A stretch of DNA of 64,000 bases, from positions 3,035,398 to 3,099,397 of the forward strand of contig NZ_CP100461.1 in NCBI RefSeq assembly GCF_024228675.1, given 5' to 3'. This document shows positions 16,314 to 18,373 of this stretch, piece after piece. Position numbers and translations under genes: made by a program. The notes under the pieces were generated by a model. The model was not told the origin of the DNA and did no database searches. It saw nothing but the letters and a program-made list of their open reading frames with translations. Position 1 is the stretch's first letter; every line of letters begins with the position of its first letter. Source of the DNA: Salinigranum marinum (GTDB lineage: Archaea > Halobacteriota > Halobacteria > Halobacteriales > Haloferacaceae).

Positions 16314-17830
16314 CAGTACAGCACCTCCGTCTCCCGCAGCAGGTCCAGATCACACAGCGTCCCGTGGACGTCGCGGATGTCGTCGAAGCCGTAGATGAGC
16401 ATCAACAGCCGTTCGAGGGCGAGCCCCCACGCCATCACGTCACACTCGACGCCCAGCGGTCTGAGGACTTCGTCGCGGAACATTCCTGAGTTCCCGATCT
16501 CGATGAGTTCGCCCGTCTCGGGATGCTTGCCGAAGAGCTCGAAGGACGGCTCCGTGTACGGGTTGTAGTGGGGCTTGAACTGGATGTCCGTGATGCCGAA
16601 CTGGCTGTAGAACTCGGTGAACGTCCCCATCAGGTCGCGTACCGAGAGGTCCTCGGCCATCACCCACCCCTCGATCTGGAAGAACTCCAATAAGTGCGTG
16701 GGGTCGAGCGTATCGTTCCGATACACTTTCTCGACCGAGAAATATCGTTGTGGGGGCTCCAGGTCGCCGACGGCGTCTCCCGAGAGATATCGCATCGACA
16801 GCGACGTGGTGTGCCCCCGCAGATCGACCTCTCGGGCCACGTCCTCGGTCCACGGCGAGTGGTAGCCGTCGCCGTCTTCCCCCTCACCGTTGCGGTGGGC
16901 GTCTTCGACCCGGGCGACCAGGTCTTCGGGGAGGTCCCGCATGGGCGGGACGTCCAGCGCGAACTGGTCCCAGTGGGTGCGGGCGGGGTGGTCCTGCGGC
17001 ATGAACAGGCAGTCGTTGATCCAGAACTCGGCGTCGGCGTGGGGGCCGTCCATCTCCTGGAAGCCCATGCCGACGAGCACGTCCTTCACTCGTTCGGCGG
17101 TCTGTCTGAGGATGTGCGTCTTCCCGCCCTGCACGCGGGGGGCGTCCGCCTCGACGTTGTAGGCGGTGAACTCGACGTCGCGCCACTCGCCGGAGGTGAG
17201 CAGTTCGGGGGTGAGCCGATCGACCGTCTCCGCGACCGCGACCCCCTCGACCATCAGCGCGTCGACGCCGGCGTCCGTGAGCCGCACCGAGCGAACGGTG
17301 TGTTCGGTCCGGTCGACGAGGCTCCTGGATTCGAGCTGGTCGAGCACCGCCGCGTCGATCCCGTCGGTCGCGTCACCGGCGGAGAGCGCCGCGAGCGCCG
17401 CCGCCTCGGGGTCGGCGTCGGGGTTGGCGTCGCTTGCCGAGAGCTGTCCCGCGTCGATGGAGCCGTACCCCTTCCGGGCGAGGTTCGCGAGCGCCACGTC
17501 GACCTCGTTCCCGTCGAGGTCGGCGGCCCCGATGACCTGGCCCATCGAGACGGGATCGTCGCGAGCGCCGGCGTCGACCGCGGCGCGGTAGAGTCTGAGC
17601 TCGGGGAGGCCCTCGTCGACGTAGCGCGTGCCCTCCTCGGTCACGGCGTAGTCGACGACGACCTCCTCGGAGATGGTGACGAGCCCCTCGTCTTCGAGCT
17701 CGAAGGCGGCCCCGGTGACGGTTTCGGGCTTCAGTCCTGTCGCCGCCGCGAGTTCGTCGATCGTCTGTGCATCGTCGGCCGACGCGGTCGTGAGGACCGC
17801 GTGCTGGGCTTTCGGCAGTGTGCGTGTCAT
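16313..17830 (-). CDS. pheS: Phenylalanyl-tRNA synthetase alpha subunit
   Basis: 505 residues. The first third has winged-helix repeats that contact tRNA, as in archaeal PheS. The class II catalytic core follows. Motif 2 appears as RYFSVEKVYRNDTLDPTHL, followed by FFQIEGWVM. Motif 3 is GLALERLLMLIYGFDDIRD near the C-terminus. The Phe pocket is in EIGNSGMFRDEVLRPLG. The ATG at 17830 is the first with homology. The 150 nt upstream form a structured leader after a small Phe-rich frame (17981-18058), which suggests the operon senses phenylalanine supply. Confidence 0.96.
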   Translation of the reverse strand: MTRTLPKAQHAVLTTASADDAQTIDELAAATGLKPETVTGAAFELEDEGLVTISEEVVVDYAVTEEGTRYVDEGLPELRLYRAAVDAGARDDPVSMGQVIGAADLDGNEVDVALANLARKGYGSIDAGQLSASDANPDADPEAAALAALSAGDATDGIDAAVLDQLESRSLVDRTEHTVRSVRLTDAGVDALMVEGVAVAETVDRLTPELLTSGEWRDVEFTAYNVEADAPRVQGGKTHILRQTAERVKDVLVGMGFQEMDGPHADAEFWINDCLFMPQDHPARTHWDQFALDVPPMRDLPEDLVARVEDAHRNGEGEDGDGYHSPWTEDVAREVDLRGHTTSLSMRYLSGDAVGDLEPPQRYFSVEKVYRNDTLDPTHLLEFFQIEGWVMAEDLSVRDLMGTFTEFYSQFGITDIQFKPHYNPYTEPSFELFGKHPETGELIEIGNSGMFRDEVLRPLGVECDVMAWGLALERLLMLIYGFDDIRDVHGTLCDLDLLRETEVLY

Positions 17831-17889
17831 GTGTCGCGTCTTCGTTGGATGGTGGAGCGTCCGGTCGTCAGTTAGCCGTTGCGGGTCGT

Positions 17890-17966
17890 GACCGCCGCGG
17901 GGCGGTCGACGGGGCCGTGCGCGTCGGTTTCGCCCGCCGCGTCCCCTCGGACGCGGTCGGGGTTCG
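17890..17966 (-). promoter_or_regulatory. Structured pheS-pheT leader: 3' half of a long stem and two hairpins
   Basis: On the minus strand, CGAACCCCG (17958-17966) is perfectly complementary to CGGGGTTCG inside the leader peptide frame (18001-18009). Just downstream is a perfect 8-bp hairpin (17937-17944 with 17949-17956, four-base loop). A perfect 7-bp hairpin follows (17890-17896 with 17901-17907, four-base loop). Neither hairpin is followed by a U run. The 9-bp stem would enclose the Phe codons, so a ribosome on those codons would keep it open. The pairing is seen directly. The regulatory role is inferred. Confidence 0.5.
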
Positions 17967-17980
17967 CCGACGATCGACGA

Positions 17981-18058
17981 TCAGCCCGCGAAGAAGAAGC
18001 CGAACCCCGGAGCCGGTAGCTGGGGAGCGGGACGCCGCGCGTGGGGTTCGGGAGCCAT
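17981..18058 (-). CDS. Putative Phe-rich leader peptide of pheS-pheT (25 residues)
   Basis: A short frame on the same strand as pheS, ending 150 nt before it. It starts with ATG at 18058, and a TATA-like CTTTTG lies 27 nt upstream, so the message would be leaderless, a common haloarchaeal arrangement. The first part is rich in Pro and Ala. The last eight residues are Gly-Phe-Gly-Phe-Phe-Phe-Ala-Gly, giving four Phe in five positions, all TTC codons. This resembles the pheM leader peptide of enterobacterial pheST in design. No domain is present. The stop codon is followed by the structured leader at 17890-17966. It could be a chance frame. Confidence 0.5.
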   Translation of the reverse strand: MAPEPHARRPAPQLPAPGFGFFFAG

Positions 18059-18082
18059 GGTTGAGGGAGTCGGTCCCGCGGA

Positions 18083-18088
18083 CAAAAG
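18083..18088 (-). promoter_or_regulatory. TATA-like box of the pheS-pheT leader
   Basis: The minus strand reads CTTTTG in the context CGCTTTTGTCCG, centred 27 nt before the ATG at 18058. Between here and the CBS gene (18089-18373) I see no gene. The spacer has an imperfect direct repeat of about 19 bp with cgagtgatggagt near 18135-18170. Confidence 0.45.
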
Positions 18089-18373
18089 CGTTGTGAGTGC
18101 GTGTGATGGCTCATGCGCGCGGGAGCGAGCGACCGGAACGAGTGATGGAGTACCGGAGCGAGTGATGGAGTCGGCCGGGGAGGCGCGAGGCGGTTCGCCG
18201 CTCACCGGGGACCGCTCGGGCACCACGTCCGGTCCGACGGCCGGATGACGAACGACCAACGAACGACCAACGGACGACGAAAGCACGACGCGACCGCTCG
18301 CACGCCGACGTCGTACCGTCGGTTCAGAGGAGACGCGGCCACGGAAGAACACGAACAGCGAGTCGAGCCGCGA

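Follow-up and report, generated by a model that had tools for sequence, protein, structure and literature searches.

A conserved phenylalanine-rich leader reading frame with covarying helices upstream of pheST in haloarchaea, a candidate ribosome-position switch

Introduction

In Salinigranum marinum, the genes for the two subunits of phenylalanine-tRNA ligase, pheS and pheT, are preceded by a short reading frame that ends in a cluster of phenylalanine codons. The question raised by this locus is whether the frame senses the charging of tRNA-Phe and controls the genes that follow it. A first-pass annotation of the 64,000-nucleotide stretch of DNA analyzed here (the window) had proposed that a ribosome stalled on the Phe codons would keep open a 9-bp stem formed between these codons and a strand beyond the stop codon, following the logic of the bacterial pheM-pheST attenuator. 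In the open literature, to which the search was mostly confined, subscription papers lying largely outside it, no earlier description of leader-peptide attenuation in Archaea was found.

Results

The leader and its conservation in haloarchaea

The features of the locus are collected in Table 1. The TATA-like box, the 25-codon frame with its GFGFFFAG end, the 9-nt complement and both hairpins described in the first-pass annotation were all found in the window sequence where it had placed them. When the 64-kb window was crudely scanned for a TATA-like box followed by a short ORF with a run of a single amino acid, the leader ORF was the sole match.

Table 1. Features of the pheST locus of S. marinum, in window coordinates.
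Feature	Coordinates	Strand	Remarks
pheS, phenylalanine-tRNA ligase alpha subunit, 505 aa	17830-16313	minus	ORF; orthologues in relatives 71-90% identical
pheT, phenylalanine-tRNA ligase beta subunit, 577 aa	16313-14580	minus	ORF directly 3' of pheS; named by position and by the first-pass annotation
Leader peptide ORF MAPEPHARRPAPQLPAPGFGFFFAG, 25 codons	18058-17981	minus	Predicted leaderless
P1 promoter: BRE-like CACAACG and TATA-like CTTTTG	18095-18089 and 18088-18083	minus	30 nt 5' of leader ATG
Strand 1, N-terminal codons 3-6 (CCGAACCCC)	18051-18043	minus	Covarying partner of Gly-Phe codons
Strand 2, Gly-Phe-Gly codons (GGGGTTCGG)	18008-18000	minus	First Phe codon at 18004-18002
Phe-Phe-Phe codons TTC TTC TTC, proposed sensing codons	17998-17990	minus	
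Hairpin 3:4	17972-17922	minus	Outer stem CGTCGG/CCGACG, internal loop CGAAC/CGAAA, inner hairpin including 17956-17937
Phe-codon partner proposed in the first-pass annotation (CGAACCCCG)	17966-17958	minus	Overlaps 5' side of hairpin 3:4
Second hairpin of the first-pass annotation, GACCGCC-CCGC-GGCGGTC	17907-17890	minus	Present in window sequence
P2, pheS-proximal promoter-like element CGCAACG and GCTAACTG	17883-17869	minus	Predicted start near 17847-17845

The regions upstream of pheS were compared among 80 named haloarchaeal contigs and whole genomes, which gave 97 distinct regions, the closest named relative of the window being Salinigranum salinum. Of the 97, 80 carry a leader ORF 23-48 codons long, with three or more Phe toward its end, usually as GFGFFF (for example, MTSEPDVVRPVRELTTDGFGFFFGVC, MAPESHETGVGDQLRRPRSGFGFFFAR and MALERAGSGIASGVDGDAFGFFFA); this count cannot be read as independent observations, since the species compared are related. 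The leaderless, Phe-containing frame upstream of pheST is thus kept in most of the Halobacteria examined, and its absence from relatives, which the annotation had named as grounds for abandoning its proposal, is not what was found. A detector that combines a TTT box about 28 nt 5' of an ATG with at least three Phe within the last 14 residues matched 73 of the 97 regions versus 4 of 1,940 windows used as controls; of these four, three are in trpS loci adjoining pheS, where the match may be the pheS leader itself. A stricter pattern, made of the GFGFFF codons and the hairpin, occurs in 97 of 391 haloarchaeal genomes, once in each, and its reversed form never occurs; the window's own genome fails this pattern solely through the loop CGAAC in place of YGGAY. 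When a phylum-wide sample of genomes was searched, all 11 strict matches fell within the family or order of the window, and none outside the haloarchaeal order. To judge from this distribution across genomes, the leader ORF is real and ancient.

Thirteen of the 97 species have no recognizable leader and retain the promoter-like element P2. Leader and hairpin are absent, with P2 kept, in L015, L029, L041, L045 (Natronomonas), L025, L031, L034, L039, L043, L053 and others, and in species of this type the neighboring gene, where recognizable, terminates near pheS. In the metagenome-assembled sequence L044 (350 nt upstream of pheS), the leader retains the GGGTTCGGCTTCTTCTTC nucleotides with the frame shifted by one, through either sequencing error or decay.

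Phe codons and the stem within the leader

The three consecutive Phe codons encode Phe in 75, 67 and 65 of 76 species, respectively, with a free choice between TTC and TTT, and the Phe-rich end remains in frame while the length of the leader varies between genera. Together these amount to a coding signature. TTT makes up 24% of the Phe codons in the leaders versus 4% in pheS (P = 8e-27), an excess that could reflect either slowing at a rare codon or selection at the RNA level. The first Phe codon is TTC in 72 of 72 leaders and never TTT, versus 142 TTC and 65 TTT at the later Phe codons. A similar asymmetry is seen for glycine, given that the first Gly codon is GGR in 69 of 72 leaders and the second in 22 of 69.

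These constraints could be taken as support for the 9-bp stem of the first-pass annotation (18009-18001 with 17966-17958), and this use of them was dropped because pairing with the N-terminal codons of the leader explains them better. The 9-bp stem is indeed complementary in the window and pairable in relatives (93% of cells), but it does not covary: 51 of 200 shuffles were as good, and the Phe codons pair with 17966-17958 no better than when partners are swapped between species. As a switch, it was therefore rejected.

In the minimum free energy fold of the window's leader, the Gly-Phe codons pair instead with N-terminal codons 3-5 of the same ORF, in a helix that the annotation had missed and that is here called stem 1:2. 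Across 79 species, the longest duplex between these strands was better than with permuted partners in 5,000 of 5,000 trials, and an 8-bp register has on average 7.81 of 8 positions paired, with 68 of the 79 species showing a perfect 8/8. Overall, 96.6% of the cells are paired, covariation is 0.223 versus 0.134 in shuffles (0 of 500 as good), and 18 cells are altered on both sides where 4.6 are expected. The consensus pairing is CCGAAYCC:GGRTTCGG, within which GAACCC:GGGTTC and GAATCC:GGATTC replace each other (P = 4e-7), while Halorubrum carries GAACGC:GCGTTC and leaders in which the first Phe has become Ser carry GGACCC:GGGTCC. Several of these compensating changes alter amino acids. The strand that covaries with 18008-18000 is 18051-18043, within the leader itself. 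Lack of covariation in the stem was another of the refuting outcomes listed by the annotation; covariation is present, though in a stem other than the one it had drawn. Given that changes in stem 1:2 compensate, even where the first Phe is replaced by Ser, the pattern of substitution indicates that the first Phe codon is conserved chiefly for its role in the RNA, and those after it for the amino acid that they encode. In two Natrinema sequences (L054 and L065), an in-frame extension of about 22 codons lengthens the leader, and a repeated RERRTCSGV-like segment lies in the loop that joins strands 1 and 2.

The same data bear on a reading in which the GFGFFFA end of the nascent peptide, in the manner of TnaC, arrests the ribosome on a small molecule such as free Phe, with no part played by slow decoding. 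A conserved peptide end near the stop codon, with the Phe cluster at the very C-terminus, is what such an arrest would look like. Nonetheless, the residues other than Phe vary (GFGFVF, GFDFFF, GSGFFF, AFGFFF, AFEPFF) and the conservation of Gly-Phe is accounted for by stem 1:2, which makes nascent-peptide arrest a decidedly improbable explanation when compared with sensing of Phe-tRNA through the position of the ribosome.

A conserved hairpin beyond the stop codon

Directly after the leader stop codon lies hairpin 3:4, in which an internal loop separates an outer from an inner stem. The hairpin at 17956-17937 that the annotation had described is present, and forms the inner part of this larger conserved structure; the second hairpin that it had included further downstream was not visible in the same-genus relatives inspected. 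The stems of hairpin 3:4 differ in sequence between genera yet still pair, with a covariation of 0.492 for stem A1 (0.203 +/- 0.023 in shuffles, 0/500) and 0.429 for stem A2 (0.157 +/- 0.023 in shuffles, 0/500), while slid controls reach at most 0.152. The internal loop has the class consensus 5'-YGGAY / 5'-CGAAA, of which YGGA/GAAA is nearly invariant. Motifs of the form YGGA/GAAR are stable and contain consecutive sheared G-A pairs.

The covariance model R2, for which the training set was the relatives of the window and the window sequence itself and not the whole set, matches the window's genome at the hairpin with E=3.6e-7. Searches of genomes with the hairpin model gave one strong match per genome, at pheS where this was checked, the weaker matches being near noise. 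A scan of positions 17700-18200 against Rfam 15 returned only sub-threshold chance matches, and no known RNA family. Among the Natrialbaceae-like matches to the strict pattern (e.g., G243 and G265), the leader end GCCCGG and a post-stop CCGGGC could pair as an extra hairpin at the stop codon.

A loop that is nearly invariant, beyond the needs of a plain switch helix, is what would be expected if the RNA were bound by a protein, for example autogenously by PheRS in the way that ThrRS recognizes its own leader in E. coli, and the ORF were secondary. This is improbable, given that conservation of the Phe codons preserves the amino acid and leaves the synonymous choice free, and that the Trp counterpart found upstream of a second trpS gene is followed by a different sequence.

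A Trp-rich leader upstream of a second trpS

That counterpart was reached from a published table of upstream ORFs in Haloferax volcanii (PMC4983044), in which a uORF 5' of a Trp-tRNA ligase gene is listed. A leader with WRW codons was found at 26 of 32 loci of the second trpS (trpS2), for example MVSTSRATCWRWQAFWEVDSIAV, MQSAPAWRWRTQTPGADSVGSASGAA and MIAVRWRWRVPSPADSPARSPAVA. Its N-terminal codons pair with a strand just 3' of the Trp codons, with compensating pairs such as GTCCGCTCCC:GGGAGCGGAC, TGTCCACTTCCC:GGGAAGTGGACA and GCTGTCCGCTGGCG:CGCCAGCGGACAGT, and in 5,000 of 5,000 trials a leader's own partners were better than permuted ones. On these comparisons, the trpS2 leader is a second member of the class, with the same 1:2 design. 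Its Trp codons lie well 5' of the stop codon, a further point against nascent-peptide arrest. Downstream of trpS2 leaders (L129-L132, L219-L246), a pyrimidine-rich stretch resembling GTGCTCACTCGCTTTCTC recurs. No second TrpS was matched in the window's genome, and no comparable cognate leader was found upstream of the primary trpS (trpS1), trpE, hisS, thrS or tyrS.

Promoters and transcription into pheS

A 'NAAC-G-C/T-TTTT' box stands at a nearly constant distance (~30 nt) 5' of the leader ATG in almost all 80 species, with TAT-containing variants of this P1 box in Halorubrum-type species. A second promoter-like element, P2, is located 30-60 nt 5' of pheS and consists, in 67 aligned sequences, of CGNAAC and CTAAC followed by CAA 28-30 nt downstream, a spacing that is constant whatever the distance to the pheS ATG. 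The haloarchaeal consensus is TTWT (PMC4983044), from which the TATA-like part of P2 departs. Nearly all relatives conserve P2, including those without a leader, and its predicted start lies within the range 17831-17980, where the annotation had held that a mapped start point would count against it. P2 may act as a basal promoter and so bypass the switch, and a conserved promoter-like element placed 3' of the switch could render the switch partly irrelevant.

Transcription start sites have been mapped in Hfx. volcanii by dRNA-seq (Babski et al. 2016; PMC4983044), with uORFs in long 5'-UTRs given in Table 2 of that work. For pheS (HVO_2948), a uORF of 26 aa, with a pI of 5.9 and a mass of 2772 Da, is reported in a long 5'-UTR, with no additional start site at pheS under the conditions used, and a 23-aa uORF is reported 5' of the tryptophan-tRNA ligase gene HVO_A0127 (PMC4983044). 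Both are tabulated as small proteins, and neither their Phe or Trp codons nor RNA structure, regulation or function is discussed (PMC4983044). The Haloferax leaders found here have mostly 26 or 28 aa, some with a calculated pI of 5.94, and masses of 2792-2850 Da; none of these equals the reported 2772 Da, so that no exact match to the Hfx. volcanii sequence was obtained. The 26-aa pheS uORF is nonetheless almost certainly this leader in Haloferax, and the 23-aa uORF is consistent with the trpS2 leader, which has an equal length. Transcription from upstream into pheS is thus supported by published data in one relative, Hfx. volcanii.

These observations also bear on whether the leader is an independent microprotein gene with no regulatory link to pheST, the latter being driven by its own promoter P2. 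The retention of a P2-like element (BRE, TAAC and CAA at +28-30) even where the leader is missing is in line with such independence. Independence is at odds with the lack of a start site at pheS in Hfx. volcanii (PMC4983044), with the occurrence of cognate codons before pheS and trpS2 and not before trpS1, trpE, hisS, thrS or tyrS, and with the interlocking of the helices with the ORF; an unlinked microprotein is highly improbable.

Discussion

Comparison of the species shows a leader ORF with its Phe codons, the helices 1:2 and 3:4, P1 and the spacing among them to be conserved. The reading that we favor, with a probability of about 0.78, is that of a leader-peptide switch in which the position of the ribosome senses the charging of Phe-tRNA and controls pheST. 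The RNA would begin at or near the leader AUG, from P1, and when free of ribosomes it could fold stem 1:2 together with hairpin 3:4. We infer that the leader is translated in the cell and that ribosomes stall on it. With ample charged tRNA-Phe, the ribosome would reach the stop codon and cover the 5' side of hairpin 3:4; with a shortage of Phe-tRNA, it would halt on the Phe codons, holding 1:2 open and leaving 3:4 free to form.

The geometry of the leader is compatible with this. The YGGA loop lies 9-14 nt from the first base of the stop codon and 17.5-23.5 nt from the last Phe codon (5th-95th percentile). The bacterial ribosome usually covers about 15 nt downstream of its P site. With such a footprint, the 5' side of the hairpin would be masked when the ribosome is at the stop codon and left exposed when it halts on the Phe codons. 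In an energy model, covering the leader raises the probability of the outer 3:4 stem from a median of 0.21 to a median of 0.998, with an increase above 0.3 in 33 of 54 species and a decrease of that size in none. For the window's own sequence, the model already favors 3:4 with the leader free, so that the gain is small (0.96 to 1.0).

The starvation state, with 1:2 open and 3:4 formed, is predicted to lead to more pheST being made. The output step would most likely be that RNA polymerase proceeds into pheS instead of stopping by a factor-dependent route, for which termination by FttA/aCPSF1 is the prime candidate. A terminator of the bacterial type is excluded, since between the leader stop codon and pheS the longest run of T is 3 in all 80 species, in agreement with the observation of the first-pass annotation that no U-rich terminator is seen. 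The 2:3 antiterminator pairing of the textbook scheme is pairable in 93% of cells and shows no covariation. The promoter-like P2, which is the weaker, may supply basal pheST.

The design resembles that of the bacterial pheM-pheST and trpL attenuators, in which a short leader ORF with cognate codons precedes aminoacyl-tRNA synthetase or biosynthesis genes, one helix is made of leader codons and a second lies beyond the stop codon, and the spacing lets the position of the ribosome choose the fold. Of the attenuator logic invoked in the annotation, the leader, the Phe codons and the presence of helices that covary have stood, while the specific switch stem has not. Unlike the bacterial systems, the haloarchaeal leader starts leaderless, and not from a Shine-Dalgarno site, the 5' strand of its first helix starts near mRNA nucleotide 8, its YGGA/GAAA loop is conserved, it works with an archaeal RNA polymerase, and it has neither a U-run terminator nor covariation of a 2:3 antiterminator. 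Because the intrinsic terminator, a defining part, is absent, the element is not filed as a member of the bacterial attenuators. T-box riboswitches likewise control aminoacyl-tRNA synthetase genes by sensing the charging of tRNA, but here there is no Rfam match, no specifier stem or T-box sequence was seen, and the haloarchaeal sensor is an ORF.

A broader proposal, which we put forward tentatively and rate at somewhat less than even odds, is that haloarchaea control aminoacyl-tRNA synthetase genes (pheST and the second trpS) through ribosome-mediated attenuators of a class specific to their domain, built on leaderless mRNAs, in which the 5'-terminal helix would admit essentially one pioneer ribosome per transcript and the post-stop hairpin would decide on readthrough without an intrinsic terminator. 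If it exists, such a class would demonstrate functionally that transcription and translation are coupled in Archaea. If the switch is real, archaea would control aminoacyl-tRNA synthetase genes by reading the position of the ribosome, whether archaeal transcription-translation coupling is tight enough for control would become testable, and the published, unexplained uORFs of Haloferax would be given a function.
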